Assembly: GCA_018650465.1 (NCBI GenBank)
Contig: JABIFY010000040.1
Span: 1 to 38,068, forward strand
Direction of reading: 5' to 3'
Origin: Alphaproteobacteria bacterium
Lineage (GTDB): Bacteria; Pseudomonadota; Alphaproteobacteria; UBA2966
Length of the DNA: 38,068 nt
A program made the position numbers and the translations under genes. The notes beneath the pieces were generated by a model. That model was not told where the DNA came from, made no database searches, and saw nothing but the letters and a program-made list of their open reading frames with translations. This document shows, one piece after another, positions 6,149 through 24,970 of the stretch. Positions within the stretch are counted from its first letter, which is position 1. The number at the start of each line of letters is the position of its first letter.

Positions 6149-6188
6149 TGTCCGGACAACTTTATGTTCCTCGAAAAGGAAAAGTCAA
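6149..6188 (-). promoter_or_regulatory. Promoter and proximal operator of dctQMP
   Basis: Read on the minus strand: TTGACT (6188-6183), 16 bases, CATAAA (6166-6161; ATAAAG with 17 bases is equivalent), then the palindrome TGTCCGGACA at 6158-6149. The operator would cover the transcription start, the classic position for repression. The same geometry recurs at six other promoters in this window. A second copy of the palindrome lies upstream at 6197. Confidence 0.75.
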
Positions 6189-6196
6189 CGGTAATA

Positions 6197-6206
6197 TGTC
6201 CGGACA
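6197..6206. promoter_or_regulatory. Distal operator of dctQMP
   Basis: A perfect TGTCCGGACA palindrome eight bases upstream of the -35 of the dctQMP promoter and 48 bp centre to centre from the proximal copy. Its flanks (AATATGTCCGGACAAGTT) are identical to those of the acd proximal operator at 23860. Such a pair could allow cooperative binding or looping by a dimeric repressor. Confidence 0.75.
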
Positions 6207-6225
6207 AGTTTACTTTCGGTTCCAA

Positions 6226-7590
6226 CTACCCTGCGACCAGATTGTCGACCAGAATGCGTACGTCATCCAGGTCCTCCAGATGATCGACCAGATCAACCAT
6301 CGCATCAGCTTTCTCACGAGAAATCGGTTTGGCCGCACCTGCTGCATTTTTGTGGAATTTCTCGAGCCAGGCATCTCGTGTCATGGCATTCTCCGGATTG
6401 CCATAAACAATTTCAACGCCTTGCCGCAGCACAGTTCCATTTTTGAGCGTCACCGAGACTTCGACGGGTGATAGTGCATTGGGATCTGGATTGTCGTTTG
6501 CCTCGACCGAAATTCGCTTCGCCAGTTCAACCGTTACCGGATCACGGAAAGCTTTTTCATGGAAATCCGGGATGTTTATTTCGCCTTTCATGAAGGCAAC
6601 AGCAGCCACATAAGGCGAACACAAACGGGCATAATTTACATCCATGGCGTCATGAGCAGGCCGACCAACCAAATGCTTCGTCAGCGACGGCATGGTCAAG
6701 GTTGCACTTTCAATCTGATCTGCCGTCAGATTGTGTTCTTTTTGAAGGAGTAGTGCGGCATCGGCGACACCATGAGTGGCGCGGCCAGACGGAAAGGGTT
6801 TATGGGCCATTTCCGTCACCCGCCAGATCTTGCCTATATTGGCGAGGATATCCGCAAGATCATATTCAAGCTCGATCAGTGAAAAATACCCGAACGGTCC
6901 TTCCAGAACACCCTGAAGTCCTGCCAGTCCGGCCTCAGCCATATCACAGGCAACCACAGCGTTGCGGGCATTGAACCCGATCTGCATGCCCAGCAGCATA
7001 GAGCCTTCGGTGTGGGGTTGCATGGTGCCGCTCAATTGAGCATAGCCAATGGAAAAGGCCCGGGTCAGGGTTTCTTGATCAAATCCGCGCAAAATAGATA
7101 TCCCGGCAACGCCAGCGAACAGGCCAACGGTGCCAGGTCGAAAAAAGCGCAGGCCGGTTTTGGCCGCAAGACCAAGATTGCAGGCAACATCAACACCGAT
7201 TGCGACGGTCGTAATCAGTTCCTGACCGGTCATTCCACCGCGACGCTCAGCTTCGGCTAAAACACAGGGCAATACGGCTGTCATGGCGTGGGCGACGGCA
7301 CCTTCATGCACGCAATCAAATTCTGAATTATGTATTTGGTAAGCGTTGCACATAGCCGCGGTCGGGGTTGGGACACGGTCGCCACTATTCCAGATCCTTG
7401 CATCATTTCCCTGCCCCCAGAGGGACTGTGTCTTGATCAGTTCAGTTACCCATGGCCCGCTTGAGCCGATCATGCCAACTCCGAAACAATCCAGAATAAA
7501 CTTTTTTGTTGCCGCACGGGCATCTTCCGGAATGTCCTCGAAACGGGTCTCAATGACAAATTTGGCAAATTTGTGAATTGCGTCGGTCAT
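6226..7590 (-). CDS. MmgE/PrpD family protein
   Basis: 454 residues, the normal length of the MmgE/PrpD family, which includes 2-methylcitrate dehydratase, cis-aconitate decarboxylase and epimerases of iminodisuccinate. All act on small poly-carboxylates without a cofactor. The substrate-pocket block reads MAHKPFPSGRATHGVADAAL; the residue usually Cys in the second paralogue (PSC) is Gly here. ATG at 7590 follows AAGG by nine bases. It lies 127 bases downstream of the flavoprotein gene in the same direction, and its end is 20 bases from the distal dctQMP operator. A second paralogue is at 14598. The exact reaction cannot be read; a dehydratase or decarboxylase acting on a branched di- or tricarboxylate is likely. 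Confidence 0.88.
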   Translation of the reverse strand: MTDAIHKFAKFVIETRFEDIPEDARAATKKFILDCFGVGMIGSSGPWVTELIKTQSLWGQGNDARIWNSGDRVPTPTAAMCNAYQIHNSEFDCVHEGAVAHAMTAVLPCVLAEAERRGGMTGQELITTVAIGVDVACNLGLAAKTGLRFFRPGTVGLFAGVAGISILRGFDQETLTRAFSIGYAQLSGTMQPHTEGSMLLGMQIGFNARNAVVACDMAEAGLAGLQGVLEGPFGYFSLIELEYDLADILANIGKIWRVTEMAHKPFPSGRATHGVADAALLLQKEHNLTADQIESATLTMPSLTKHLVGRPAHDAMDVNYARLCSPYVAAVAFMKGEINIPDFHEKAFRDPVTVELAKRISVEANDNPDPNALSPVEVSVTLKNGTVLRQGVEIVYGNPENAMTRDAWLEKFHKNAAGAAKPISREKADAMVDLVDHLEDLDDVRILVDNLVAG

Positions 7591-7717
7591 GGGAAAAAGC
7601 CTTTATGTTTATCAGGAACCAGGCGAAGACATCTGGCATCAATCGAGAAAGCTGGTCTTGTTACTGTTTTCGTCAGGGCAAACAATCAATGGGATAAATC
7701 TGGATCAATACGTTGAT

Positions 7718-9136
7718 TTAATTAAGTTTTTTTACATATTCCGCAGCCGACTGACCGGCCAATCGGCCCAATGTCAAGGCCGTACACAGCCCTGCAGCCG
7801 GGAGATAACCAGTTGCCCCGTTCCCGGAGATGCCCTGTGCCGTCCCGCCTCCAGCAAAGAAATTTGGTAACAAACCACCATCTTTCTTCAGAACTTGTGC
7901 GCGACTGTCCACCTTTAATCCACCCTGTGTGTGATAAAGCGCGCCTGTGATGCGTATCGCCCGATACCCTGGTTGTAGTTTTGGCTCGTTACCAAAATCC
8001 CGACCAAAAGGACACTGGGCGCGACCATCAACGATATCATCAACAGATGCCATGGTTTGTGCCAAGGCATCGCCTGGAACACCGATCACCTCCGCCAGTT
8101 GGCTCAATGTATCTGCCACCCGGACAGCGCCCAGTTCCGAGAGCTGCCGGTATTCTGGCATGTCATCGCAGCGCGCGCCGCGCACGTCATCAAATATCAA
8201 CCAGGCTATTCCCGACGGCTGGTCCAGAACACGTTGTGCTTGTCCGGAAATGTTGGCAATTTCGTCAGAGAACCTTTGGCCCAGAATATTCACGGCGATG
8301 CCGCCGCCCATGACCACATCATAGTTTACTGAAATCGCGTGGGGCTCAGCGAGGGCACCATATCCCTGAAAGGCGTTCATGCCATCAACAGCACCACCGA
8401 GTTCCATACCCCAGAGGATGCCATCGCCTTTGTTTCCTTCGTGGCCAAAATACTTGTAATTCTTTGCATTACCGAATTCAGGGATGAACTTGCGGATCAT
8501 TTCCCGATTGCCCCCAAACCCACACGTCGACGCAATCAAGGCCTTGCATCCGATCCGTTCCTCGCTGCCATCGGGCCGCTGGAACGAAACCCCTCGGACC
8601 AGCCCGGTATCGGTCGCGAACAAACCAGTCACATGGGCATCAGTGACGATATCAACGCCAATATTTGCTGCAGCGCCGGCGAGTGCTCCCGACAATTCCT
8701 CGCCCGTTTTCGATGGCACACCATGCATTCGATTCACCGAGTGTCCGAAAAAACCACTCCAGCTTGGACTGACGGAGAATGGAACATCAAATTTGTCCGT
8801 GAGCCAATCAACAGTCGGGCCGGAATTTCCAGCCACCGTTCGCGCAATGACTTCGTCCGCCTGGCCAGAAGTTTTTGCCATGATGTCGGCATAGAAAATA
8901 TCTGGTGAATCCTCTATCTGAGACTCCGTTTGGGATTTGGTTCCCGCCGCACAAACATATCCCTGTGACATGGCGGTACTGCCTGCCGGAACGGGGTCGC
9001 GCTCCAGCACGATGACTTCCGCGCCTTCGGATCGTGCTGCCAGTCCCGCAGTCAGGCCGCAACCACCTGCCCCAATGACCAGAACCGGAACTTCCATATC
9101 GAAATCGATATTTTCATAAGAAATACTTGTAGCCAT
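7718..9136 (-). CDS. FAD-dependent fumarate-reductase-like oxidoreductase
   Basis: 472 residues of the FAD_binding_2 (fumarate reductase/flavocytochrome c flavoprotein, 3-ketosteroid dehydrogenase) family. The N-terminus has a Rossmann FAD site (VIGAGGCGLTAG, 20-31, then LERD). His402 in HTQGGLKVD matches the substrate-binding H-T-x-G-G block, and GNGATGYLPAAGLCTALTLGRLAG is the closing FAD motif. There is no signal peptide or heme motif, so it is a soluble, cytoplasmic enzyme, probably reducing or forming an alpha,beta double bond in a carboxylate. It diverges from the citE-type gene, and the shared region 9251-9298 carries one operator within both promoters. Confidence 0.87.
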   Translation of the reverse strand: MATSISYENIDFDMEVPVLVIGAGGCGLTAGLAARSEGAEVIVLERDPVPAGSTAMSQGYVCAAGTKSQTESQIEDSPDIFYADIMAKTSGQADEVIARTVAGNSGPTVDWLTDKFDVPFSVSPSWSGFFGHSVNRMHGVPSKTGEELSGALAGAAANIGVDIVTDAHVTGLFATDTGLVRGVSFQRPDGSEERIGCKALIASTCGFGGNREMIRKFIPEFGNAKNYKYFGHEGNKGDGILWGMELGGAVDGMNAFQGYGALAEPHAISVNYDVVMGGGIAVNILGQRFSDEIANISGQAQRVLDQPSGIAWLIFDDVRGARCDDMPEYRQLSELGAVRVADTLSQLAEVIGVPGDALAQTMASVDDIVDGRAQCPFGRDFGNEPKLQPGYRAIRITGALYHTQGGLKVDSRAQVLKKDGGLLPNFFAGGGTAQGISGNGATGYLPAAGLCTALTLGRLAGQSAAEYVKKLN

Positions 9137-9250
9137 GCCACCCCTGCGCTGGCCGACCCAGCGCCTCCCCTGGAAACAGATATCGTCCGGCGGTTGCCGA
9201 CATACGATATGACAGACCCCCTCTTTGCAGGCCCCAATATTTCATCGCAC

Positions 9251-9291
9251 TTGACAAAATACCTGGCCATCATAGAATTTGTCCGGACAAA
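9251..9291 (+). promoter_or_regulatory. Promoter and operator of the lyase/CoA-transferase operon
   Basis: TTGACA (9251-9256), 16 bases, TAGAAT (9273-9278), one base, then TGTCCGGACA (9280-9289); the full palindrome extends to TTTGTCCGGACAAA. Predicted transcription begins inside the operator, about 27 bases before the ATG at 9312. About 40 bp of this promoter recur almost unchanged at 13064-13103. Confidence 0.8.
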
Positions 9292-9298
9292 CTGTCAA
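9269..9298 (-). promoter_or_regulatory. Divergent promoter of the flavoprotein gene
   Basis: On the minus strand TTGACA (9298-9293), 18 bases and TATGAT (9274-9269) form a near-consensus promoter whose spacer contains the same TGTCCGGACA operator. One operator could therefore control both directions, with the flavoprotein start codon about 125 bases downstream. Confidence 0.6.
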
Positions 9299-9311
9299 TG
9301 TGGAAAACCTT

Positions 9312-10157
9312 ATGACAAATATCTGCCGGTCACTTCTTTTTGCCCCGGGTTCACGCCCGGAAATATTCGCCAAAACACTGGTCGCCGGTGCCGATCTGGT
9401 GGCAATTGACCTGGAAGACGCAGTGGCCCCTGCCTTGAAGGCAGATGCCAGGATCGCTGGCATTCGTTTTCTTGGCGAAAGTGACGGCACCGGACCACGC
9501 CGGGCGTTACGCATGAATGCCCTGGACACCGCTTTTGGCTTGACTGATCTTGTTGCGGTCGCTGAGGCCTCGCTGCAACATGGATTGTTGTTCATGCCCA
9601 AGATCAACAGCCCGCGTGACCTGCAGATCGCAGATACTGTCCTCACTGCCGCTGGATCAGGATTGGGTCTGATCGCCCTTATCGAAACCCTTGATGGCCT
9701 TGAGGCAGTGCATGAAATTGCGCAAGCCACACCGCGTCTGGAATTGATGATGTTTGGCGGTGTCGATTTTTCGGTCGAGTTGGGAACCACGCTGGACCGC
9801 GAGCCGCTGCATTACGCCCGGTCCCGGATCATCCATGCCGCCAGACGCGCCGGTATCCCTGCTCTGGATGTTCCGACAATCGCTTTTCGTGATGATGATA
9901 TCGTTCGCTCCGACGCCGAATATGCACGCTTGCTTGGCTTTTCCGGAAAGGCCGTTTTGCACCCGTCGAATGTGGCAACAGTGAATGAAGCCTTTTCACC
10001 GTCAGATGCCGAGGTTGAAGAGGCAAAGGCGATCATTGCGGCCTTTGAAGCCAGTGACACAGGCGTCGCTGTTCTTGACGGAAAACTGGTCGAGGCACCT
10101 GTCGTAAAGTCGATGCAGAATATCCTTGCCCTTGCCGCAGCAGAAGGTCGGGAGTGA
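9312..10157 (+). CDS. HpcH/HpaI (CitE-type) acyl-CoA lyase
   Basis: 281 residues from the ATG at 9312. CitE-type enzymes of the HpcH/HpaI superfamily cleave malyl-CoA, methylmalyl-CoA or citramalyl-CoA to an acyl-CoA and a 2-oxo acid, using Mg. Diagnostic pieces: RSLLFAPGSRPE (6-17), DLEDAV (33-38), Arg67, Glu125 (ALIET) and Asp152 (FGGVDFS), the last two being metal ligands. A longer reading from TTG 9279 would begin inside the operator at the transcription start and is rejected. A five-codon frame (MWKTL, ATG at 9298) ends in a TGA that overlaps this ATG. The stop overlaps the CoA-transferase start, so the two are co-translated. Citramalyl-CoA-like lyase is my best guess. Confidence 0.88.
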   Translation: MTNICRSLLFAPGSRPEIFAKTLVAGADLVAIDLEDAVAPALKADARIAGIRFLGESDGTGPRRALRMNALDTAFGLTDLVAVAEASLQHGLLFMPKINSPRDLQIADTVLTAAGSGLGLIALIETLDGLEAVHEIAQATPRLELMMFGGVDFSVELGTTLDREPLHYARSRIIHAARRAGIPALDVPTIAFRDDDIVRSDAEYARLLGFSGKAVLHPSNVATVNEAFSPSDAEVEEAKAIIAAFEASDTGVAVLDGKLVEAPVVKSMQNILALAAAEGRE

Positions 10158-11362
10158 TGACACTTCGACCCCTGGACGGCGTGCGGATCATATCGGTTGA
10201 ACAATATGGGGCCGCGCCTTTTGCAACCATGTACATGGCGGATATGGGTGCCGACGTCATCAAGATAGAACAGCCTCCGAATTCCAATGGCCGTGGCGGT
10301 GATAGTTCACGGGCCTCAGGCCCCCATTTCCTGGGCCCCAACAACAGCCATTTCTTTCAAACATTCAATAAATCGAAGAAGAGCCTCACCCTCAACCTGA
10401 AAAACCCGGATGCGAAGGAAGTCCTGCATCGTCTGGTGGCAGGTGCCGACGCCGTCACCAACAACATGCGCGGTGCCCAGGTTGCACGTAACGGCCTTAA
10501 CTATGAAAGCTTGAAAGCATGTAACCCCGCCATTGTCTGCGGGCATCTTTCCGGCTATGGCCGCAAAGGGCCGCGGGCCGATTGGCCTGCCTACGATTAT
10601 CTGGCACAGGCCGAGGCCGGATTTATGGCTTTGACCGGCGAGCCCGATGGCCCGCCACAACGCATGGGCTTGTCAATCATCGACTACCTCGGCGGCATCA
10701 CGCTGGCCTTTTCCGTAACTGCTGGCATCGTCGGCGCCCTGAAATCAGGCAAGGGTCGGGATATCGACGTCACCCTTTTTGATGTCGCCATGCATCAGCT
10801 GACTTATCCCGCAACATGGTATCTCAACGAGGGCGACGTCGTTGAAAGACGGCCCAACTCCGGCCATCCAAGTGTCGTCCCTTGTGAAGTCATGCCAACA
10901 GGTGACGGATCGATATTTGTCATGTGCGTCCTGCCAAAGTTCTGGGAAGCCATGTGTAACGGACTGGGCAGGCCGGATCTGATCGAAGACGCCAGGTTTA
11001 ATACTCCGGGCTTACGTTACCAGAACCGGGACGACCTAATGGCGCTGCTGAATGTGGAAATGAAAACCAGGACAACAGCGGAATGGATGGCGCGTCTGGG
11101 TGGCAAGGTTCCCCTGGCACCCATCCTGTCCCTTCCTGACGCGCTCGAAAATCCTTTTTTCGTTGAGAGTGACGGGATCGAAAGCATGGACCTGCCCCAG
11201 CGCAAGAATTTTCGCATGGTCGCCAGCCCCATCAGACTTGATGGACATCGCGCAACTGGAAAACCGGCACCGGAACTTGGCGCCGACACAGATCAAATCC
11301 TGACGGAATTGGGATATAGCACCAATCAAATTACAGCGTTGCGCGGAAACGGAACGATATGA
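10157..11362 (+). CDS. CaiB/BaiF (family III) CoA-transferase
   Basis: 401 residues. Family III CoA-transferases move CoA from a donor such as succinyl-CoA to a carboxylic acid; itaconate and mesaconate CoA-transferases are among them. The N-terminal block GVRIISVEQYGAAPFATMYMADMGADVIKIE is the family signature, and Asp176 in LSIIDYLGG is the expected catalytic nucleophile. It starts at ATG 10157 (GTG 10154 is possible), sharing one base with the lyase stop, behind AAGG/GGGAG. Coupling to a CitE-type lyase strongly suggests that it activates the acid that this lyase later cleaves. A second family member is at 28501. Confidence 0.92.
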   Translation: MTLRPLDGVRIISVEQYGAAPFATMYMADMGADVIKIEQPPNSNGRGGDSSRASGPHFLGPNNSHFFQTFNKSKKSLTLNLKNPDAKEVLHRLVAGADAVTNNMRGAQVARNGLNYESLKACNPAIVCGHLSGYGRKGPRADWPAYDYLAQAEAGFMALTGEPDGPPQRMGLSIIDYLGGITLAFSVTAGIVGALKSGKGRDIDVTLFDVAMHQLTYPATWYLNEGDVVERRPNSGHPSVVPCEVMPTGDGSIFVMCVLPKFWEAMCNGLGRPDLIEDARFNTPGLRYQNRDDLMALLNVEMKTRTTAEWMARLGGKVPLAPILSLPDALENPFFVESDGIESMDLPQRKNFRMVASPIRLDGHRATGKPAPELGADTDQILTELGYSTNQITALRGNGTI

Positions 11363-11524
11363 AAAACAATTTATCAAGGTTGAACTACCAGGTAGTAGAA
11401 AACCGAAATCAATCTTTCCAAAAAAGACATCTCCCCCGTTTCATTTGACAATAGTCAAAGCGGGTTTTCAGTCAGAACCTGAATATTGGTTGCAATCGCA
11501 TTTTTGCACCAGAAAGAAAATAAA

Positions 11525-12196
11525 ATGGATATCGATCTACAAGGCGTACTAATTTTCTTCCATGTTCTGTTATTTGGCTATTGGTTGGGGTCTGACCTCG
11601 GCGTTTTCTATTGTGACAGCCAATTGACCAGGGAAGACCTTAGTCTTGAGGAGCGATTGCGCGTTCGGGATATCCGAAAAAATATCGACATGGCACCGCG
11701 CACATGCGCGCCGTTGATTTTACCCATTGGCTTTACCCTTGCGCTGCAGCATGGGTCTCAAATAGACGGGGTGTGGCTTGTGGTGGTTTGGGTGCTCAGC
11801 CTGCTCTGGTTGCTCACATTGTGGGTGGAACGACTTTCCGTTGGTACACCACGAGAAGCCGGGCTCAACAAGGCTAATCGCAAAGTCTGGTTTCTGATGG
11901 CGTTCGCGATGACGGCACTGGGCGTTTATGCCCTGGTTACTGGCAACCTTGTTTCCGAGACCTGGTTAGCGGCGAAAATAGCGCTCTACGGTCTTATGGT
12001 TCTCAGTGCCACATGGATTTTGCGCGCGGCAGATCACTGGGAGCCAATATTTGAAATGGTCAGAGCCGGTGGTGCGGAAAAAATTGAAGGCGAAAAAAGA
12101 ATGAAAAGGAACCGGATCAATGCCGGAAGCGCTGCCGGAACCTTATGGGTTGTTGTTCTTCTGATCGCCTTCCTGGGTGCAACCAAGCCGTTCTGA
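11525..12196 (+). CDS. Conserved integral membrane protein, function unknown
   Basis: 223 residues from ATG 11525, which follows AGAAAGA; an upstream frame from 11486 adds 13 unlikely residues. It has four or five hydrophobic segments, beginning with VLIFFHVLLFGYWLGSDLGVFY, then a polar loop (REDLSLEERLRVRDIRKNIDMAPR) and PLILPIGFTLAL. The paired His and Asp in the first two segments are suggestive of a ligand or metal site, but I recognise no defined family. It lies 162 bases after the CoA-transferase on the same strand and is convergent with the racemase-superfamily gene. The gap holds the palindrome ACTACC-A-GGTAGT (11384-11396) and TTTGAC-AATA-GTCAAA, so it may have its own promoter. Confidence 0.7.
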   Translation: MDIDLQGVLIFFHVLLFGYWLGSDLGVFYCDSQLTREDLSLEERLRVRDIRKNIDMAPRTCAPLILPIGFTLALQHGSQIDGVWLVVVWVLSLLWLLTLWVERLSVGTPREAGLNKANRKVWFLMAFAMTALGVYALVTGNLVSETWLAAKIALYGLMVLSATWILRAADHWEPIFEMVRAGGAEKIEGEKRMKRNRINAGSAAGTLWVVVLLIAFLGATKPF

Positions 12197-12219
12197 GGGT
12201 ATCGTCCATAATTCAGGTC

Positions 12220-12981
12220 TTAGTGCTCGGACAACAGACGCCCATATCCAAAAATCTTGTCGTCTATGCCAGACTGGCGCAGGGCAAAATGATAAATGGC
12301 CGTATTGATGGCGACGACCGGCTTTTCCAGCCAACGCTCTGCTTCTGCCGCGATAGCACCAAGGCATAGATTTGTTCCAACCTGGATAATGAGATCCGGT
12401 TCGCTGGCGTTCAGTTCCTTGAGGGAATTCACCAGGTCTTCTTCTTTTTGGCAGGCAATATGGATCGGACTGCGGGCCTTCAAACCCTTCAGAGCGACAA
12501 CCTCAAGGCCAATTTCCGTAAAATAGCGGCGGACCATCTCGTCGCCTACCGGCCAATAGGGCGTCAGCACTGCGACCCGTTTTGCCTTAAAGGCATCAAC
12601 AGCTGTTTGACAAGCCTCTGAACCAAGAGCCACCGGCAGACCACCAGCGCGTTCGCTCAAACGTTTTTTCAGGATTTCGCTGCCACCTTTGCCATCCCAA
12701 AAGGTTTCCGCTGACATACCGAGTACAATCATATCCGGCTCGCACGTGATCATGTCATCAACAGAGCGATCAAGTGTGCCCTTGATTTGCTCAATCAGTT
12801 TTTCGAAATCTGCATCTGAATTCAGATCGATATTATCAACATGAAACCGCCCCGTGTTGTTGCTCACACCTTCGGGTGCCAGACGGGCAAATTCGCTCTC
12901 GACAATTGTGTTGGTCGATGGCACCAGGACGCCAAATTTTGCGCGGTATCCGATCGGGTCGATCATTCTTTCGGTTTTCAT
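12220..12981 (-). CDS. Asp/Glu racemase-superfamily enzyme (maleate isomerase/arylmalonate decarboxylase-like)
   Basis: 253 residues. The start FGVLVPSTNTIVESE (16-30) and the end GYGRLLSEH match the maleate isomerase/arylmalonate decarboxylase branch of the superfamily, whose members isomerise or decarboxylate small dicarboxylates with one or two catalytic Cys. Here the first Cys position is Ser90 (LGMSAETFWDG). The second block reads IIQVGTNLCLG, with Cys206 a few residues beyond the usual place. A two-Cys isomerase or racemase mechanism is therefore unlikely; decarboxylase or another reaction is possible. ATG at 12981 follows GGAAG. The gene diverges from the CMD protein at 13289, and a second type of palindrome sits 28 bases upstream of the start. 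Confidence 0.8.
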   Translation of the reverse strand: MKTERMIDPIGYRAKFGVLVPSTNTIVESEFARLAPEGVSNNTGRFHVDNIDLNSDADFEKLIEQIKGTLDRSVDDMITCEPDMIVLGMSAETFWDGKGGSEILKKRLSERAGGLPVALGSEACQTAVDAFKAKRVAVLTPYWPVGDEMVRRYFTEIGLEVVALKGLKARSPIHIACQKEEDLVNSLKELNASEPDLIIQVGTNLCLGAIAAEAERWLEKPVVAINTAIYHFALRQSGIDDKIFGYGRLLSEH

Positions 12982-13008
12982 TTTTCTTCCAGTCTGCTTT
13001 GAAAATAC

Positions 13009-13030
13009 TTCGGGATATTCATATCCCGAA
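13009..13030. promoter_or_regulatory. 22-bp perfect palindrome, second operator type
   Basis: TTCGGGATAT, two bases (TC), then ATATCCCGAA form a perfect inverted repeat just upstream of the racemase-superfamily gene. A copy of one arm, ATATCCCGAA, lies at 13108-13117, beyond the TGTCCGGACA operator. With only a two-base centre it looks more like a protein site than a hairpin, and it is unrelated to the GntR-type site, so a second regulator may act here. Confidence 0.5.
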
Positions 13031-13063: not shown

Positions 13064-13103
13064 TTGACAAAATACCTATTATCATAAAATTTGTCCGGAC
13101 AAA
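13064..13103 (+). promoter_or_regulatory. Promoter and operator facing the CMD-family gene
   Basis: TTGACA (13064-13069), 15 bases, TAAAAT (13085-13090), one base, TGTCCGGACA (13092-13101, extended to TTTGTCCGGACAAA). It shares about 36 of 40 bases with the promoter at 9251. The predicted leader to the gene at 13289 is about 190 bases. A degenerate half-site CCGGACA follows at 13125-13131. The operator also lies about 110 bases upstream of the divergent gene ending at 12220, whose promoter is less clear. Confidence 0.7.
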
Positions 13104-13288: not shown

Positions 13289-13654
13289 ATGAGTGACCTC
13301 AACGAACGAAGAGAAAAAGGAAAAAGCCTGGCAGCCAAACTATTGGACGGCGTTCCCCCGCCGGCAAAGATGCCAAAAAAGTTTGTAGACTACACTCTCG
13401 AACATGTGTTCGGCGATGTTTGGCAGGATGAGTCCATGTCCCTCGAGGAACGCTCGTTGGTCACGTGTACAATGCTGGTGGTAATGAACCGTGAACCCGA
13501 AATGCGCGTACATTTTCGCGGTGCATATAATCTCGGCATTCCAAAGGAAAAAATTGAAGGCATGATCATTCATGCCGCCCATTATGGTGGCTGGCCAGTT
13601 GCGGCTTCAGCTTTCAGGGTCCTTGCTGAAGCCTGGCCTGAAGACCAGGGCTAG
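13289..13654 (+). CDS. Carboxymuconolactone decarboxylase-family (AhpD-fold) protein
   Basis: 121 residues, matching the small all-helical CMD domain: an entry helix (residues 5-40), then SLEERSLVTCTMLVVMN, EMRVHFRGAYNLGIPKEKIEGMIIHAAHYGGWPVAASAFRVLAEA. The H-x3-A and G-x4-E-x3-E/I pattern followed by YGG-P is diagnostic. The redox CxxC of true AhpD is absent, so it is more like the gamma-carboxymuconolactone decarboxylase side of the fold, but many members have no known reaction. AAGGA lies seven bases before the ATG. It is convergent with gntR and expressed from an operator-bearing promoter, so it belongs to the regulon. Confidence 0.85.
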   Translation: MSDLNERREKGKSLAAKLLDGVPPPAKMPKKFVDYTLEHVFGDVWQDESMSLEERSLVTCTMLVVMNREPEMRVHFRGAYNLGIPKEKIEGMIIHAAHYGGWPVAASAFRVLAEAWPEDQG

Positions 13655-14541: not shown

Positions 14542-14580
14542 TTGCACCCTTCCAGCGATACGATATTATATGTCCGGACA
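14542..14580 (+). promoter_or_regulatory. Promoter and operator of mmgE-ligase-amidase operon
   Basis: TTGCAC (14542-14547), 16 bases, TATTAT (14564-14569), one base, then TGTCCGGACA (14571-14580). The geometry matches the other operator-bearing promoters. Transcription would start inside the operator, only about 20 bases before the GTG at 14598. Confidence 0.7.
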
Positions 14581-14593: not shown

Positions 14594-14597
14594 GCCA

Positions 14598-15977: not shown

Positions 15978-15993
15978 TCTCAGGAGTTCAAAT

Positions 15994-17382: not shown

Positions 17383-18677
17383 CCGTTCAGGATCGCACCA
17401 ACCAAGCGCTTGAAGCTATCGAGCAACAGCGCAGCCACAACATATTCCTGGATGTCGATGCTGACAGGTCTCGTCAGGCTGCGCAGGCAGCAGATCAGAG
17501 GTCTGTACCCCTGGGACCCCTGGACGGCAAACTGATCGGGATCAAAGCCAATCTGGCAGTAAAGGGTTTGCCCTGGACTGCTGCCATCATGGGGCTTAGC
17601 GACAGGATCGCCACGGAAGACGCAGGGGTCGTTGCCCGACTTCGCGCAGCAGGCGGCGTTATTCTGGGCACATTGAACATGCATGAAGGCGCGTTGGGTG
17701 CCGTAACAGATTCGCCCGGATTTGGTCGTTGCGCCAATCCTTTGATCCACGACTACACGCCAGGCGGCTCTTCCGGTGGATCGGCAGCCGCCGTTGCTGC
17801 GGGTCTGGTAGATTTCGCACTGGGCAGCGACACGATGGGATCATCCCGTGTGCCCGCAGCCTATTGCGGGGTTGCCGGGATCAAACCAACGGATGGATTA
17901 ATCGGCCGATCAGGCATGGCTTTCCTCAGTCCCAGCCTTGATGCAATTGGTCCTCTCGCACAAAGGGTCCGGGACCTTTGGCCCATTCTGTCGGCACTTG
18001 CAGGCCCCGATGCACTGGACCCTCTGGTTCAACCCCTGCCCCGCCACTGGCCGACTGATCCTGAGTGGAGAGATGACTTGTCAGGTGTCAGGATTGGCCG
18101 CCCCAAACAGATAGACAATGTTGAGTGTGAGCCTGAAATTCTGGCCGGCCTGAACCTTGCGATCGACGCATTGAAGGCACGCGGCGCGACAATTCTGGAT
18201 GTCGACATATCAGGCTGGAATCCCGGCCATGCCCGTCGTGGCGGCTTGCTATTGTCAGAAGCAGAGGGTGCTGTGGTAAATGCCGAACTGCTGGACGGGC
18301 CGCAAGGCACGATCACACCAGAGTTTCGGCAGAATCTGGAATTTGGTCGGGATGCATCTTCAAGCCGCTTGGTCGACGCCATTTCAAGAATTTCGGCTGC
18401 CGGGGCTGCTTGTGCCCGTGCCATGGTGGATGTTGACACGTTGATCATGCCAACAGCACCACAGCGTGCCTTCCCGCACGGATCAGACGTACCGAACAAT
18501 CAGGCTGATTTTTCTGGATTGGCCAATTTTGCAAAACGCCCGGCGGTCAGTATACCTGTACCATTATCAGGTGAAATTTTGCCTGCAGCTGTTCAGCTTC
18601 TCGGCCACCCCGGCGAAGACCCTGCTTTGTTGGCCATCGCCGACGTACTGGACCGCGAGCTGGAGACGACTAGTTGA
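17379..18677 (+). CDS. Amidase-signature family hydrolase
   Basis: 432 residues with the amidase-signature catalytic triad: Lys56 (GIKANLAVKG), the cis-Ser in PGGSSGGSAAAVAAG (131/132) and nucleophile Ser155 (GSDTMGSSRVPAAYCG). These cytoplasmic enzymes hydrolyse amides to acid and ammonia; some are half-amidases acting on the monoamide left by cyclic imide hydrolysis. The start GTG overlaps the CoA-ligase stop by four bases, so the two are translationally coupled: amide to acid to acyl-CoA is a plausible sequence. No partner suggests GatCAB, and the length is shorter than GatA. Its end overlaps the convergent crotonase gene by eight bases. Confidence 0.9.
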   Translation: MTVQDRTNQALEAIEQQRSHNIFLDVDADRSRQAAQAADQRSVPLGPLDGKLIGIKANLAVKGLPWTAAIMGLSDRIATEDAGVVARLRAAGGVILGTLNMHEGALGAVTDSPGFGRCANPLIHDYTPGGSSGGSAAAVAAGLVDFALGSDTMGSSRVPAAYCGVAGIKPTDGLIGRSGMAFLSPSLDAIGPLAQRVRDLWPILSALAGPDALDPLVQPLPRHWPTDPEWRDDLSGVRIGRPKQIDNVECEPEILAGLNLAIDALKARGATILDVDISGWNPGHARRGGLLLSEAEGAVVNAELLDGPQGTITPEFRQNLEFGRDASSSRLVDAISRISAAGAACARAMVDVDTLIMPTAPQRAFPHGSDVPNNQADFSGLANFAKRPAVSIPVPLSGEILPAAVQLLGHPGEDPALLAIADVLDRELETTS

Positions 18678-19455
18678 AGTTTGGTTTTCGCTTTTCAAGA
18701 AAGGCCTTATAGCCTTCCTTGAAGTCATCAGAAACAAACGAGTCATCAAAAAGTTTCCGGTATGCGGGCGCGTCCGGATCTGCGCCGGCAACAACCGCTG
18801 CAATCATTTGTTTGGCAACGGCAATTGAATTCTGCGACACCGCGCCCAATTCTTCACAATATGCCCTGACGGCTGTTTCCAGTTCGGCTTCCGGATAAAT
18901 CCTGTCGATCAACCCGATGGCCAGTGCTTCATCTGCATCGATCAGTCGCCCTGTATACAGCAGATCACGCGCCTTCGCATGCCCGACAAGATCAACCAAT
19001 TGTTTCGTATCCCCGAAAGAAACTGCTGTTCCAAGCTTTGCAGGTGGAATGCCATATTTTGATCCTTCAGATGCAAAGCGCTGATCACAAACCATAGCCA
19101 GTTCGCATCCACCGCCCACACAGGCCCCATGGATCATAGCCACAACAGGCTTCAGCAAACCCGCAAATGCCAGCTCCCCCGCACGGAAATTGTCATTATA
19201 GATGCGAGCTGATTCTGCGGATTTGTAATTGTCGGAAAACTCCTCAATCGCAGCGCCCGCTGCGAAGGCTTTGTTCCCCGCCCCTCGAAGGACGACCGAT
19301 CGCACCTCATCGTTTTCAGCGAGCATTTTTGTCAGGTCTGGCATCGCCCGCCACATAGCCCCCGTGATGGCATTGCGTTTTTCAGGTCGATCCAGCGTCA
19401 CCCACGCGATACCATTCTTGATCGTGCACTCAATTTGACCATCAGCGAATTTCAT
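18670..19455 (-). CDS. Enoyl-CoA hydratase/isomerase (crotonase) family protein
   Basis: 261 residues, crotonase fold, acting on CoA esters. The oxyanion-hole segment KAFAAGAAIEEF (62-73) and GACVGGGCELAMVCD (110-124) are intact, with Glu118 corresponding to one catalytic Glu of hydratases. The second Glu, normally in FGxPE, is replaced by Pro138 (YGIPPAKLG), so plain hydration by the two-Glu mechanism is doubtful; decarboxylase, isomerase or C-C hydrolase activity is possible. It is the last gene of the acd-dctPQM run, 38 bases after dctM, and tail-to-tail with the amidase. Confidence 0.88.
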   Translation of the reverse strand: MKFADGQIECTIKNGIAWVTLDRPEKRNAITGAMWRAMPDLTKMLAENDEVRSVVLRGAGNKAFAAGAAIEEFSDNYKSAESARIYNDNFRAGELAFAGLLKPVVAMIHGACVGGGCELAMVCDQRFASEGSKYGIPPAKLGTAVSFGDTKQLVDLVGHAKARDLLYTGRLIDADEALAIGLIDRIYPEAELETAVRAYCEELGAVSQNSIAVAKQMIAAVVAGADPDAPAYRKLFDDSFVSDDFKEGYKAFLEKRKPNFN

Positions 19456-19493
19456 AGATGTCTCCAGGGGGTAACAAGTAGGTAAAAGCTTTG

Positions 19494-20786
19494 CTATCGC
19501 ATGGTGTTCGGTAGCCAGGTCACGATACCAGGATTAAAAGTGAGAAACAAAACCAGTCCGATCATGATGAGGCAGAAAGGCAAAGCCGCAATGGCGATTT
19601 CGCCGATCTTTTGACCGGTAATCGACTTGATCACAAAAAGATTAAACCCGATAGGCGGGGTAATTTGCGCCATTTCAATTGTGATGATCAGGAACACACC
19701 AAACCAGATGGGATCGAATCCGGCGGCAATAACCAACGGCAGCGTCACGGGCAAGGTCATGACAATGGTAGACAATCCGTCCAGAAAACAACCAAGGACA
19801 AGATAGAAAAACATCAGCATAAAGATCAGAGCCATCGGTGACAGATCGAACCCGGCAATGGCAGCTGCCACGTCTGTCGGAATGGCAAGTCTTGCCATGG
19901 CCTTGGACAAAAACAGCGCACCGGCGAGAATGATGGCGATCATCGAACAGGTGCGAACGGTTCCCATGAGGGCACCGGCCATAACCTTTACATTGAGCCG
20001 TCGGTCAGAGGCAGCCAGAATAGTTGCGCCCAGCACGCCGATTGCGGCGGCTTCAGTAACGGATGCAAATCCAGCATACATGGAGCCAACGACAAAACTG
20101 ATCAGCAAGAATGTTGGCAATAGTTTCAATAATGACTTCAACTTGAACAGCATCGTCGTGCTGTCGCTGGTCGATGGTGCCAACTCAGGACTGATAGTCG
20201 CCCGCACCCCGATATAGATCATGAACAGTAGCGCCAGGATCAGCCCTGGAATGATGCCTGCCATAAAGAGTTTCAGGATAGAGACTTCGGCCAGAACACC
20301 GTAAACAATAAGCGGTATGGAAGGCGGGATAAGAAAGCCGATGGTACCTGACCCGGCCAAAGCGCCTGCGACAAAGGATTTATTGTAACCAAGCTTTGTC
20401 AGTTCTGGCAGGGTTATCCGTCCGACAGTCGCCGTTGTCGCAGCGGAAGATCCGGATACAGCTGCAAAGATCGTACTTCCCAATACATTCACGTGGGTCA
20501 ATCGTCCAGGCAATCGCCGCACCCAGGGTGCCAAACCGGCAAATAGATTTTCGGACAATTTGGTTTGAAACAGAATTTCACCCATCAGGATAAACAGAGG
20601 CAAGGTGACCAGTTCAAAGGCCGTGGCGGTCGACCAGAAATCCAGCGCCATGAAACGGTCGACGCGAATTGTCTTGAACATTTCAAGTGACAACGCCCCG
20701 ATTGACATCAAGGAGAACCCGACCCAGACACTGCTTCCCAAAAAGCCAAATAGCAAAATGAGAATAAAGATCAGTGGGGCTGTCAT
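19494..20786 (-). CDS. dctM: TRAP transporter large permease (second system)
   Basis: 430 residues with about 12 membrane segments and DctM blocks: LVTLPLFILMGEILF near 60, AVSGSSAATTATVGRITLPEL near 110 and SGTIGFLIPPSIPLIVYGVL near 145. It overlaps dctQ by four bases (ATGA). It forms an importer with the small permease at 20783 and the receptor at 21466, transcribed from the acyl-CoA dehydrogenase promoter with two operators. It is clearly diverged from the dctM at 4156, so the two systems may import different acids. Confidence 0.94.
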   Translation of the reverse strand: MTAPLIFILILLFGFLGSSVWVGFSLMSIGALSLEMFKTIRVDRFMALDFWSTATAFELVTLPLFILMGEILFQTKLSENLFAGLAPWVRRLPGRLTHVNVLGSTIFAAVSGSSAATTATVGRITLPELTKLGYNKSFVAGALAGSGTIGFLIPPSIPLIVYGVLAEVSILKLFMAGIIPGLILALLFMIYIGVRATISPELAPSTSDSTTMLFKLKSLLKLLPTFLLISFVVGSMYAGFASVTEAAAIGVLGATILAASDRRLNVKVMAGALMGTVRTCSMIAIILAGALFLSKAMARLAIPTDVAAAIAGFDLSPMALIFMLMFFYLVLGCFLDGLSTIVMTLPVTLPLVIAAGFDPIWFGVFLIITIEMAQITPPIGFNLFVIKSITGQKIGEIAIAALPFCLIMIGLVLFLTFNPGIVTWLPNTMR

Positions 20787-21304
20787 TCGTTGAACCCCGC
20801 AATTGTTGAAGGCGTCTCAACCACTTCGCCTCTGAATTGGCGAATAATTCGTGCAAGCAGGGAGAGGGAAAGGATGATTACAGACAAGGCCAGAGCTGCT
20901 TGTGGGACCCACAGGGGAGAACGGCTCGGGAAGACGCTGAGGGAGCCAAATCCGTAACTCCGCCAAGCATGTTCGACCAGCGCGGAACTGAGATAGGCGG
21001 TCAAGGCAAGGGCCGATAATGAGCATAAAATATCAAGTGGCCGCATCCAGTTGGCCGGCAACATGTCGGTCAGGGCTGTTACCCGAATATGGGCGCCCTG
21101 CTTCAAAGCCCAGCCAGAACCGGAGAAAAGAACAAACAAAAGAAGATAGCCACTGAATTCTACGGCCCAGGGCTGAGACCATTCAAAAAATGACGTCACG
21201 ATAACTTCAAAAACCAACATAACGGCAAGACAAAAACAGGCGATTGATGCCGTTACAGCACCCGCAAATGCTATTCCGTCTATCCAGCGCAGAATATGCG
21301 TCAT
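20783..21304 (-). CDS. dctQ: TRAP transporter small permease (second system)
   Basis: 173 residues, four membrane segments. The family block KQGAHIRVTALTDMLP (about 68-83) matches the H-I-R-V motif, though the usual Asp of RVD is Thr. It begins at ATG 21304, preceded by GGGGGAA, 161 bases after the receptor gene; this gap holds a strong hairpin. Its end is coupled to dctM by an ATGA overlap. Confidence 0.9.
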   Translation of the reverse strand: MTHILRWIDGIAFAGAVTASIACFCLAVMLVFEVIVTSFFEWSQPWAVEFSGYLLLFVLFSGSGWALKQGAHIRVTALTDMLPANWMRPLDILCSLSALALTAYLSSALVEHAWRSYGFGSLSVFPSRSPLWVPQAALALSVIILSLSLLARIIRQFRGEVVETPSTIAGFNE

Positions 21305-21370
21305 TCCGTTCCCCCTTTAATGACCGGACCCACAAGGCAACCACCCTGCAGGTCCGACATCATATTAGGC

Positions 21371-21393
21371 CGATTTCGCTAGTGGCGAAATCG
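21371..21393 (-). other. Hairpin between dctP and dctQ
   Basis: CGATTTCGC and GCGAAATCG form a perfect 9-bp stem with a 5-base loop (TAGTG). There is no U-run, so it is not a standard terminator. Hairpins at this point of TRAP operons can protect the upstream receptor message and raise receptor yield over permeases; this role is inferred. Confidence 0.5.
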
Positions 21394-21465
21394 CTTCGTC
21401 TTTAACAATAGGCACACACCATAGTGTTGATGTCACGCCTCATTTCCGTAAAGCCCGGAAATGCT

Positions 21466-22458
21466 CTACTTGCCGGCACGCTTGCGGTATGCCGCAATGA
21501 TTTCAGCAGATTTTCCACCAACGCGTTTGATGAAATCAGCTTCCATAGTGACAGTCGCTGCGATCATGGCTGCTTTCAATGCAGGTGTTGCTGCCTGAAC
21601 AGTCATGCCATTCTTGACCAATTGAGCCATCCGTTTTTTGTGCTCTGCTTCAGAAATCACCCAGAAGTCACGCTCCATCTTGCGGGCCAAACCTTCGATG
21701 GCTTTCTGATGCGCAGGTGACAAAGCATTCCACATGTCAAGATTAACGTTCATGACATTCGATGCCCACAAGTGGTTGGTGTTGTATGTGTGCTTGAGAA
21801 ATTCCCAATATTTCTGAGCGACAGCCGTTGAACCTGAAGTCATCACAGCATCGACCTTGCCTGTGGCCAGAGCTGGAACAACGTCAGCCGAGTTCAATTG
21901 CAAAGCCACCATGCCAAGATTGGAAACCATGGTCGCCGTGTTGGCGTCATAGGTCCGCATGCGGATGCCCTTCATGTCGGCTTTGCTTTCGATCTTCTTC
22001 TTGGTGAAGAAGTTCTGACTGGGCCATGGCACCGAATAAAGCATTTTCTGGTTGCGCTTCATCAGTTCGGCTTCCCACGTCGGGCGCACGATGTCCTGCA
22101 TGATACGCAAATCTGCATAATTCGAAATCAGGAAGGGAATAGATTCAACGCCCAGGATCGGCACATCGCCAACGTTCACGAAGGCAGCGAATTCGCCCAT
22201 GGCGACCAAACCGTCTTCAATAGCCCGCAGACTTTCGTTGTGACGAACACCTAGCGAGCCACCCGCATGAACAGTCATGACGACTTCGCCACCGGTAGCT
22301 TCTTTCACGGCAGCAGCAAAGGCTACTGCATCCTTGGTATGAAACTCACTGGCACCCCAGGGAATTGAAACATCCCACTTGGTTTCCGCGAGTACAGGGC
22401 TGGATATTCCGACCACCACCGCGGCCGCTATTGCTGCTGAACTTAACCTGTTGAACAT
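21466..22458 (-). CDS. dctP: TRAP transporter substrate-binding protein (second system)
   Basis: 330 residues from ATG 22458, chosen because AAGGA lies eight bases upstream and the protein then begins with a clean signal peptide (MFNRLSSAAIAAAVVVGISSPVLAE). A longer frame from 22479 would run into a hairpin. The segment DMKGIRMRTYDANTATMVSNLGMVALQLNSADVVPALATGKVDAV is the DctP substrate core with the conserved Arg. Periplasmic receptor for a carboxylate, differing from the dctP at 2998 in lacking Cys. It lies 122 bases downstream of the acyl-CoA dehydrogenase, which suggests that the imported compound is oxidised as a CoA ester. Confidence 0.93.
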   Translation of the reverse strand: MFNRLSSAAIAAAVVVGISSPVLAETKWDVSIPWGASEFHTKDAVAFAAAVKEATGGEVVMTVHAGGSLGVRHNESLRAIEDGLVAMGEFAAFVNVGDVPILGVESIPFLISNYADLRIMQDIVRPTWEAELMKRNQKMLYSVPWPSQNFFTKKKIESKADMKGIRMRTYDANTATMVSNLGMVALQLNSADVVPALATGKVDAVMTSGSTAVAQKYWEFLKHTYNTNHLWASNVMNVNLDMWNALSPAHQKAIEGLARKMERDFWVISEAEHKKRMAQLVKNGMTVQAATPALKAAMIAATVTMEADFIKRVGGKSAEIIAAYRKRAGK

Positions 22459-22477
22459 TACTTGTCCTTTCGATTGC

Positions 22478-22515
22478 AAGCCCGGTTCCCGGGCTTTGTT
22501 GACCCGTCTAACGGG
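22478..22515 (-). other. Tandem hairpins upstream of dctP
   Basis: AAGCCCGG-TTC-CCGGGCTT (22478-22496) and CCCGT-CTA-ACGGG (22503-22515) lie between acd and dctP, just before the dctP ribosome site. No U-run follows. They could be processing or stability elements that give dctP its own 5' end. Confidence 0.45.
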
Positions 22516-22580
22516 CTTCTGTTTTGGGGAAGTTTCCCCTCATCCGGTTTGATGTTCTGGCTGAAGAATGCCCCCCTGTG

Positions 22581-23744
22581 TCAAACCGGATTACGTTCGA
22601 TCAATTGTTTTGCGATAATCATTCTCTGAATTTCATTGGTGCCTTCGCCGATACACATCAGGGGTGCATCACGGAAATAACGCTCCACATGGTATTCCCG
22701 GGAATAACCGTAGGCACCGTGGATGCGCATGGCTTCAAGCGAGTTTTCCACGGCTGTCTCCGAAGCAAAATATTTGGCCATGCCCGCTTCCATGTCGCAG
22801 CGTTGGCCCCGGTCATGGGCAGCGGCGGCGGCATAAGTGAGTAAACGTGCTGCTTCCAGATTTGTCGCCATATGGCCCAGTTTCAACTGAATTGCCTGAT
22901 GTTCACATATTGGTTTGCCAAAGGTTTGGCGAACCTGGGAATAAGCAACGCTGTCTTTCAAGGCTGCAGATGCAAGGCCGCAACCGCGCGCCGCAATATT
23001 GATCCGGCCCAGTTCCAGGCCGCCAAGGGCCGTTTGCATGCCCCTGCCCTCTTCTCCGCCAATCAGGTTTTCAACCGGCACCCGATAGTCAATAAATGTA
23101 AGGCCCGCCGTATCGATTCCTTTGTATCCCAGTTTGTCAAACTTGTGCGTTACCTCAAATCCTTCGCCCTTTTCGGCGATCAGCATGGACATGCCTTTAT
23201 GGCGGGGCTCTGCATCGATATCGGTTTTGACCAACAACGCGTAACAAGACCCCTCAATGCCATTTGTGATCCAGGCTTTGGTTCCGTTCACAACATAATC
23301 GTCACCGTCGCGCACGGCGCGGACGCGAATAGCTTGCAAATCCGTGCCGCAATCGGGCTCGGTCAGCGCCAACCCACCCCTGATTTCTCCGGTCGCGAAC
23401 CTTGGCAAATATTTTTGCTTTTGGGCATCAGTACCCATTCGGGAAACGCAAGACGACATGATCAGGTGGCTGTTCATGATGCCAGTCAGGGACATCCACG
23501 TTTCTGCGATCTTTTCGATAACCTTGGCATAGGTCGTGGCACTAAGGCCCAGGCCACCATACTCTTCGGGAATAGTCGCGCCAAACAGGCCAAGCTCCTT
23601 CATTTGCTCGACCATTTCCAGCGGATATTCATCACCATGATCAAAGCGCAATACATGGGGGCGTACATCACGCTCCAGCCACTTTTCAACGCTGTCGAGA
23701 ATCATTGTTTCAACGTCATCGTTCTCCATCAGAGGGTCGCTCAT
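22581..23744 (-). CDS. Acyl-CoA dehydrogenase
   Basis: 387 residues from ATG 23744, which has AAGGA nine bases upstream; an ATG three codons earlier is too close to that site. FAD enzyme that introduces an alpha,beta double bond into an acyl-CoA and passes electrons to ETF. Blocks: GLALTEPDCGTDLQAIRV (FAD and substrate), NGTKAWITNG, and the C-terminal GEGTNEIQRMIIAKQLI in which Glu367 is the expected catalytic base. It heads the operon acd-dctP-dctQ-dctM-crotonase with two operators upstream. With the crotonase it forms a short beta-oxidation-like pair, likely on a branched or dicarboxylic acyl-CoA. Confidence 0.93.
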   Translation of the reverse strand: MSDPLMENDDVETMILDSVEKWLERDVRPHVLRFDHGDEYPLEMVEQMKELGLFGATIPEEYGGLGLSATTYAKVIEKIAETWMSLTGIMNSHLIMSSCVSRMGTDAQKQKYLPRFATGEIRGGLALTEPDCGTDLQAIRVRAVRDGDDYVVNGTKAWITNGIEGSCYALLVKTDIDAEPRHKGMSMLIAEKGEGFEVTHKFDKLGYKGIDTAGLTFIDYRVPVENLIGGEEGRGMQTALGGLELGRINIAARGCGLASAALKDSVAYSQVRQTFGKPICEHQAIQLKLGHMATNLEAARLLTYAAAAAHDRGQRCDMEAGMAKYFASETAVENSLEAMRIHGAYGYSREYHVERYFRDAPLMCIGEGTNEIQRMIIAKQLIERNPV

Positions 23745-23859
23745 GTCTCTCATTCCTTTGTTGAAAAATAATGATGCCGGGTATTCCTGTGACGCTTAAT
23801 CTTCACGCCGACATGGTCAGTCAATCCGCACACCATACTACCACCAAACCCCCAAAATA

Positions 23860-23897
23860 TGTCCGGACAAGTTAAAGGCGTTAAATACTGGTGTCAA
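23860..23897 (-). promoter_or_regulatory. Promoter and proximal operator of the acd-TRAP operon
   Basis: Minus strand: TTGACA (23897-23892), then TTTAAC/TTAACT as -10 (15 or 16 bases on, 23876-23870), then TGTCCGGACA (23869-23860) within one base. A leader of about 120 bases precedes the start at 23744. The layout is the same as at dctQMP. Confidence 0.72.
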
Positions 23898-23904
23898 TTA
23901 TTGT

Positions 23905-23914
23905 TGTCCGGACA
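23905..23914. promoter_or_regulatory. Distal operator of the acd-TRAP operon
   Basis: Perfect TGTCCGGACA (extended TTGTCCGGACAA), seven bases upstream of the -35 and 45 bp centre to centre from the proximal copy; it ends two bases from the stop codon of the deacetylase gene. Confidence 0.75.
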
Positions 23915-23916
23915 AT

Positions 23917-24798
23917 CTATTCCTGGCTTTCTGACCAAGGATTTTCCGAGACAAATCGTTCGGCAATTTCCTGGCGGGAGGTAATCCAGATTTCCGGAAT
24001 CTGGCTGACATATTTCAGGAATTCGTCCAGCGCCCAGATCCGGCCAGGACGGCCGATGATACGAAGGTGAAGACCAACCGAGAGCATGCGGGGGCCTTCT
24101 TTGGTTTCCTCAAGCATCCAGTCAACCGAGTGACGGACATAATCCAGCCATTGAGTTGGCGTATAGGCAGGGGCAACCCAGAACTTCATGTCATTGGTAT
24201 CTATGGCATAAGGCATGACAACCAGTCCGCGCTTGCTACCATCAGCCATCTCAACTGATTTCCAGCGCGGTACGTCATCTGACATGTCATCCATGTGATA
24301 CGTGTAGCCCTCCTCAAGTAGCAAACGATGGGTCTGAGCGGTGTGCAGATACCGGCTTAACCAGCCAGCGGGCCTCGTTCCCATCGTTTTTTCTATACTC
24401 TCGGCGGCCTTGCGAATGAATTCACGCTCGCGGTCTTCCTTGTAGGAAAATTGGTGAACCCAGCGCCAACCGTGCGAACAAACCTCGTGCCCCTGGCGTT
24501 TGATTTCAGCAGCCAGGTCCGGTGCCCGCTCCAGCGAGAGGGCTGCTGCCGTGACGGTTGTCTTTGCTTCGTACTTGTCCAGTAACTTCATGACGCGCGG
24601 ACCACCTGCCCGAATGCCGTACTGGTAGTTGCTCTCGTTGACATAGTTGCGGATGGGAATCTTCAACGCCACACCAAGTTCATCAACCGGCTCCGGCAAC
24701 TTGTCGCCGTCGGCAACATTCATCTCCGAGCCTTCCTCTACATTGATCACAATGGAGAGTGCAAGGCGTTTGCCGTCAGGTAACGTGAAATCAGTCAT
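23917..24798 (-). CDS. PuuE-like hydrolase (allantoinase / cyclic imide hydrolase-like)
   Basis: 293 residues, a good fit to cytoplasmic PuuE-type members of the polysaccharide deacetylase superfamily. Blocks: SIVINVEEGSE (14-24), YQYGIRAGGPRVMKLLDKY, GHEVCSHGWRWVHQ (metal-binding His region), GWLSRYLHTAQTHRLLLEEGYTYHMDDMSDDVPRW. Such enzymes open allantoin or cyclic imides by hydrolysing a C-N bond. The start at 24798 is preferred: the longer reading from 24873 begins with ATGTCCGGACAA, that is inside the operator and at the transcription start. AAGGG precedes 24798. Transcribed from its own operator-bearing promoter; paralogue at 1161. The amidase at 17379 could act on the product. Confidence 0.87.
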   Translation of the reverse strand: MTDFTLPDGKRLALSIVINVEEGSEMNVADGDKLPEPVDELGVALKIPIRNYVNESNYQYGIRAGGPRVMKLLDKYEAKTTVTAAALSLERAPDLAAEIKRQGHEVCSHGWRWVHQFSYKEDREREFIRKAAESIEKTMGTRPAGWLSRYLHTAQTHRLLLEEGYTYHMDDMSDDVPRWKSVEMADGSKRGLVVMPYAIDTNDMKFWVAPAYTPTQWLDYVRHSVDWMLEETKEGPRMLSVGLHLRIIGRPGRIWALDEFLKYVSQIPEIWITSRQEIAERFVSENPWSESQE

Positions 24799-24862
24799 GG
24801 ATGCCGGGCCCTTCAATAAGCATGATGCTCGAACCAGAATACACTTTTTCGGTTCGATTTTT

Positions 24863-24901
24863 TGTCCGGACAAATATTTGATCAGTAGCCGGATTTGTCA
24901 A
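24863..24901 (-). promoter_or_regulatory. Promoter and operator of the PuuE-like hydrolase gene
   Basis: Minus strand: TTGACA (24901-24896), 16 bases, AAATAT (24879-24874), one base, TGTCCGGACA (24872-24863; extended TTTGTCCGGACAAA). The leader to 24798 is about 70 bases. Confidence 0.75.
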
Positions 24902-24931
24902 GTAACAAGCGGTAACTATCAAACATCGACC

Positions 24932-24970
24932 TTGACGAAACAAGATGATCTTTCCTAATTTGTCCGGACC
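24932..24970 (+). promoter_or_regulatory. Promoter and operator of the second CMD-family gene
   Basis: TTGACG (24932-24937), 16 bases, CCTAAT (24954-24959), one base, TGTCCGGACC (24961-24970). This is the only copy with a changed base in the 10-bp core. It is 98 bp centre to centre from the divergent operator at 24863. Confidence 0.68.

Follow-up and report, generated by a model that had tools for sequence, protein, structure and literature searches.

In an alphaproteobacterial genome, a short perfect palindrome recurs in front of operons for catabolism and transport, with the gene of a GntR/UTRA protein lying among them. Do these palindromes make up one regulon, and does the neighbouring gene encode its regulator? 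Comparison of the window, the whole stretch of 38,068 bp analysed here, with related loci in other bacteria indicates that this is a new GntR/HutC-type regulon, and that the protein reading the palindromes is very probably the product of the regulator gene within the cluster. The gene identities used for the window come from Pfam and NCBIfam (Table 1).

Palindromes in the window and in the genome

Eight copies of TGTCCGGACA and one copy of its one-mismatch form TGTCCGGACC, the latter at 24961, were all found where the original prediction had placed them, distributed over six intergenic regions. The core GTCCGGAC occurs nine times in the 38 kb window, at these nine sites and nowhere else. With one mismatch allowed, the window holds 12 matches, a number attained by no shuffle out of 100; the expectation from dinucleotide shuffling is 1.29. 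Many unrelated copies across the genome, the outcome that would have spoken against the prediction, were not encountered: a pattern search of the whole genome (4,799,700 bases) recovered eight copies of WTGTCCGGACAW, all of them inside the 19 kb locus, compared with two copies of a reversed control pattern, and the 13 places outside the locus that match TTGTCCGGACAA with one mismatch are dispersed. The sequence flanking the palindromes varies from copy to copy.

The sites at 9280 and 24863 abut the TTG codons that were assigned mechanically as starts of the HpcH (9279) and PuuE2 (24873) open reading frames. The similarity of PuuE2 to its relatives begins at residue 13, and therefore its real start most likely lies downstream. 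With that start, site 24863 is intergenic. For the MaoC gene at 595, the 594 bases upstream contain no box. The open literature that we searched describes neither a bacterial operator with this palindrome nor a bacterial regulator for it.

Table 1. Predicted regulator, operators and target genes in the window.
Feature	Positions	Strand	Description
Regulator gene (proposed repressor)	13683..14417	-	GntR/UTRA (HutC-type); PF00392 and PF07702 above cut-off
Predicted operator	6149..6158		over start region of TRAP1-SDR-PuuE1 promoter (minus strand); TTGACT 30 bp upstream
Predicted operator, second of pair	6197..6206		48 bp upstream of 6149 site
Predicted operator	9280..9289		between divergent FAD-MmgE1 and HpcH-CoA transferase operons; on +, TTGACA-16-TAGAAT before box
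Predicted operator	13092..13101		between maleate isomerase-like gene and CMD1; TTGACA 28 bp upstream on +
Predicted operator	14571..14580		between regulator gene and MmgE2-CoA ligase-amidase operon; TTGACT 34 bp upstream on +
Predicted operator	23860..23869		acyl-CoA dehydrogenase-TRAP2-crotonase operon; TTGACA 28 bp upstream on -
Predicted operator, second of pair	23905..23914		45 bp upstream of 23860 site
Predicted operator	24863..24872		PuuE2 (minus strand); TTGACA 29 bp upstream; orthologous position in Tistrella
Predicted operator, one mismatch	24961..24970		CMD2 (plus strand); TTGACG 29 bp upstream
Target operon	1161..6080	-	TRAP importer 1 (DctQ 5439, DctM 4156, DctP 2998), SDR 2041, PuuE-like 1161
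Target operon	6226..9136	-	flavocytochrome c/TcuA-like 7718, MmgE1 6226
Target operon	9309..12196	+	HpcH/CitE lyase (RipC-like), type III CoA transferase 10154, membrane protein 11486
Target	12220..12981	-	maleate isomerase/arylmalonate decarboxylase-like
Target	13289..13654	+	CMD-family protein 1
Target operon	14598..18677	+	MmgE2, PaaK-like CoA ligase 15994, amidase 17379
Target operon	18670..23753	-	acyl-CoA dehydrogenase 22581, TRAP importer 2 (DctP 21466, DctQ 20783, DctM 19494), crotonase 18670
Target	23917..24873	-	PuuE-like cyclic amidase 2; true start probably around 24837
Target	24990..25562	+	CMD-family protein 2

Conservation of the box with the regulator

Relatives were gathered by protein similarity to the regulator alone (32–43% identity), and 6–20 kb were read around each. 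At G+C contents of 0.58–0.71, TTGTCCGGACAA with at most one mismatch is present in 15 of 24 non-redundant loci of GntR homologues. Over these loci it ranks first among all 4096 palindromes of 12 bp, with 9 exact occurrences against 0.016 expected from base composition and, at one mismatch, 25 against 0.65. In the sequence read around the remaining nine, the consensus box is missing; some of these contigs are cut, and elsewhere the specificity of the protein is perhaps different. A logo that includes the relatives gives the full box as the 16-bp palindrome ATTTGTCCGGACAAAT. Outside the selected 12-mer, this box has A at −8 and T at −7, conserved to 80% and 62%, respectively, in the GC-rich relatives.

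The box follows this regulator and not UTRA proteins at large. In a comparison with equal flanks, in which the window was counted among the orthologue loci, the box was found at 8 of 18 orthologue loci and at none of the 27 loci of other UTRA regulators from the same genomes (Fisher p 0.0002). Genomes with the regulator contain 49 sites (18 genomes other than the one studied here), and genomes without it contain 2 (10 genomes). The fifteen boxed loci include those of Caballeronia, a betaproteobacterium, and of the actinobacterium Mycobacterium branderi. In line with the original prediction, the motif accompanies orthologues of the regulator in further families and classes. The original prediction that the local GntR protein controls these promoters is largely supported by this distribution. 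Three features go beyond that prediction: the 16-bp length of the box, its constant spacing from a −35 element, and the resemblance of the lower pathway to itaconate/methylsuccinate degradation.

The boxes of the relatives precede similar operons. In genome G081 they lie before MaoC-ACAD-CoA transferase, MmgE2-MmgE1-ligase-amidase and a crotonase gene; in G684, before MmgE2-ligase-amidase and a run of SDR-PuuE2-MmgE1-lyase-MaoC-ACAD-CoA transferase; in G701, both TRAP importers are likewise preceded by boxes. The orthologous position of the 14571 operator is occupied in G684, G701, Tistrella mobilis (G272) and its congener G047. On the circular plasmid pTM2 of T. mobilis, the PuuE2-TRAP1-MmgE1 and ACAD-CoA transferase operons have boxes in front of them (635111 and 640602), and the regulator gene, at 180.7 kb, is more than 200 kb away; in G047 the corresponding boxed operons are on a different contig from the regulator gene. 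The sharing of operators by such distant orthologous operons argues for action in trans.

Outside the Proteobacteria, a plasmid of the actinobacterium Mycobacterium branderi has near-consensus boxes (L086 8831, 8918) located 80–170 bp ahead of a GntR gene with 37% identity; the genes next to it (P450s, SDR) are unrelated. In G701, a consensus box (L064 8254) precedes the genes of a TauD-family dioxygenase and of a solute-binding protein of family 5, possibly further members of the regulon; the TauD gene of the window, at 26883, is without a box.

The regulator and its predicted recognition of the box

By its domains, an N-terminal GntR winged helix (PF00392, 79.5 bits, cut-off 27) and a C-terminal UTRA domain (PF07702, 51.4 bits, cut-off 23.8), the regulator belongs to the HutC (UTRA) subfamily of the GntR family. 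It scored below cut-off with the named NCBIfam equivalogs, among them HutC, TreR and PhnF: the best score was 85.1 bits for TIGR02404 (cut-off 211.95), and HutC TIGR02018 gave 84 (cut-off 220). A contig search with the regulator protein returned a single weak match, from Staphylococcus.

The effector domain of AraR from Bacillus subtilis is of the sugar-binding LacI type, not UTRA. The AraR box, At(T/A)tGTaCGTAcaa(A/T)T (PMC4218819), equals the box described here in length and outer bases and differs in one base per half-site, −2/+2 being A/T in AraR and C/G here. AraR boxes are also single and paired, as these are, and the recognition helix SRHTIR aligns with SRYTVR in the comparison of AraR with the regulator. 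NagR/YvoA and DasR, which are among the best solved matches, share the GntR and UTRA domains of the regulator, whereas the targets found here are unrelated to amino sugars. At the position of NagR Arg48 and AraR Arg41, the two residues that contact G−4 (PMC4333415, PMC4218819), the regulator has Arg47, and every orthologue compared has Arg as well. NagR uses Arg38 to contact the G at −5 of its half-site (PMC4333415); in contrast, the base at −5 of the operators described here is T, and the residue aligned with Arg38 is Lys37 in the regulator and never Arg in the group.

The orthologue in G173 has an altered recognition helix, SRYAVRQAL, and no consensus box. A single perfect 16-bp palindrome, ATTTGTTCGAACAAAT (L058 10422-10437), is located there between the regulator gene and a MaoC-ACAD operon. 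In this one case, helix and palindrome look like a matched change of protein and site. AraR, NagR, the present group and the G173 variant make a compact natural set for working out the GntR recognition code. The unnamed GntR/UTRA subfamily to which the regulator belongs, found in many Alphaproteobacteria and some Betaproteobacteria, gains a predicted DNA-binding specificity and a target set.

Promoter layout and the proposed repression

Each box or box pair in the window is matched by one promoter, seven in total, in which TTGAC starts 28–34 bp before the box in the direction of the gene, and several of the −35 hexamers are perfect TTGACA. Among the relatives, the 90 bases around the boxes contain 29 TTGAC matches, of which 16 lie within the four positions from −30 to −27, a count in which one or two matches are duplicated since L062 and L066 overlap. 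This fixed spacing means that the box covers the region just after the −10 element, as expected of a repressor. The argument is based on the spacing and not on a simple promoter scan of the region, which found 16 promoters against 15.2 expected in shuffles. On the minus strand, in the direction of FAD-MmgE1, the 9280 box sits between TTGACA and TATGAT. In the directions of the regulator gene and of the 12220 gene, no clear promoter of matching geometry was seen.

We consider it highly likely that the GntR/UTRA protein acts as the repressor of a local regulon and reads the nine predicted operators in the six regions. As a dimer, it would bind the 16-bp ATTTGTCCGGACAAAT at nine places, with the main operators downstream of the −10 element and over the transcription start, about 28–30 bp past the beginning of a TTGAC −35 element, where a bound repressor would block RNA polymerase. 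The boxes paired at 45–48 bp in two intergenic regions suggest cooperative binding, and the second copies would strengthen the block. A pathway metabolite in the UTRA domain would release the protein, so that the two TRAP importers and the catabolic enzymes are induced together; at site 14571 autoregulation may be added. The analysis shows the sites themselves, their restriction to the locus, their conservation along with the regulator and with orthologous operons, and the spacing at the promoters; that the protein binds the DNA, that it represses and does not activate, and that an inducer releases it is what we infer.

The same protein could bind the box mainly as an activator, or as a dual regulator. 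The partner boxes 45–48 bp upstream lie ahead of the −35 element, a possible seat for an activator; however, each assigned promoter has a box right behind its −10 region, and perfect −35 hexamers such as those noted above argue in the same direction, which makes activation unlikely. It is still less likely that the box is genuine and bound by a regulator encoded elsewhere, with the GntR gene a mere neighbour. Many genomes have several UTRA proteins, and on pTM2 a second, unrelated UTRA regulator (L084 3830-4558, TMO_RS23550) adjoins the boxed PuuE2-TRAP operon. Yet close copies of this second regulator are confined to its own genus, the loci of other UTRA regulators are without the box, Pfam and NCBIfam revealed no regulator in the window besides the 13683-14417 gene, and loci chosen by the GntR protein alone yield the box as their top palindrome.

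Some genomes do have recurring short perfect palindromes, and the copies might be a repeated element, a restriction-type site or a product of chance with no regulatory role. This is hardly credible for palindromes with variable flanks that are limited to one locus, keep a constant spacing to the −35 element and are conserved with the regulator across classes. Repression by the local GntR/UTRA protein is the reading that we retain.

Probable catabolic function of the regulon

The predicted regulon joins about 20 poorly annotated genes as one co-regulated catabolic unit, whose substrate can be searched for by induction. That the enzymes form one pathway, as originally proposed, is plausible because orthologous operons carry the motif in relatives. 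Each of the five enzyme types encoded by ich, mcd, mmgE, ict and ccl in the itaconate/methylsuccinate cluster known from Pseudomonas and Cupriavidus has a homologue in the window (CoA transferase, MaoC, lyase, MmgE and acyl-CoA dehydrogenase), and Caballeronia and Pseudosulfitobacter have MaoC-MmgE-ACAD-GntR-lyase clusters with an upstream box. Unlike the known cluster, the present locus has many additional enzymes, and its MmgE1 is without canonical residues. MaoC reaches 224.7 of the 340 bits required for RipB/Ich and the lyase 229 of 375 for RipC/Ccl; both were therefore dropped as itaconate-pathway equivalogs under the NCBIfam cut-offs, and those of the relatives likewise fall below. The substrate is thus probably related to that of the itaconate pathway and not identical with it.

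When the MmgE/PrpD proteins were compared with (S)-(R)-methylsuccinate isomerase, MmgE2 was seen to keep the motifs with the conserved His and Lys of the active site. In MmgE1 (6226-7590) and its regulon orthologues, FFRPG stands for FHPTG and the Lys of the K-LH motif is missing; the loss of two canonical MmgE/PrpD active-site residues marks a divergent clade. The best solved match of MmgE1 is cis-aconitate decarboxylase, an assignment that we rejected since it lacks the aligned His and Lys. An assignment as maleate isomerase was likewise rejected for the 12220 protein, which has Met at what we take to be the position of the first catalytic Cys. Neither PuuE2 (226 bits) nor PuuE1 (114) reaches the cut-off of the PuuE allantoinase TIGR03212 (424.6).

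With moderate confidence, the lower pathway is most likely a CoA-dependent breakdown of a branched dicarboxylate resembling itaconate or methylsuccinate. The PuuE-like hydrolases, the amidase and the PaaK-like ligase hint, at low confidence, that an amide or cyclic amide feeds it. Cyclic imide catabolism, by imidase and half-amidase, offers a resemblance in enzyme class only: the regulon may likewise join a PuuE-type cyclic amidase with an amidase. A bolder and rather doubtful scheme is that the regulon encodes an undescribed route, by which a methyl-branched cyclic imide or amide is taken up via TRAP and opened by PuuE-like hydrolase and amidase into a branched C5-dicarboxyl-CoA pathway; the regulators missing from itaconate/methylsuccinate-type clusters of Alpha- and Betaproteobacteria would then be orthologous GntR proteins. 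The word "regulator" is absent from the paper on the itaconate/methylsuccinate cluster (PMC12290011), and a literature search linking MmgE/PrpD with GntR and TRAP found nothing relevant; the present protein is a candidate regulator for clusters of this kind.

The 11486-12196 protein has hydrophobic stretches and is without a Pfam or NCBIfam family; the gene of a 32% identical homologue begins about 110 bp past a box in G160 (L080). Homologues of the 12220-12981 protein with about 50% identity are encoded near boxes in G047 and Allorhizobium. Genes for MCP chemoreceptors lie directly after a box in G047 (L070 8191-9876) and after a boxed operon in Tistrella (L084 14420-16495), suggesting chemotaxis toward the substrate.
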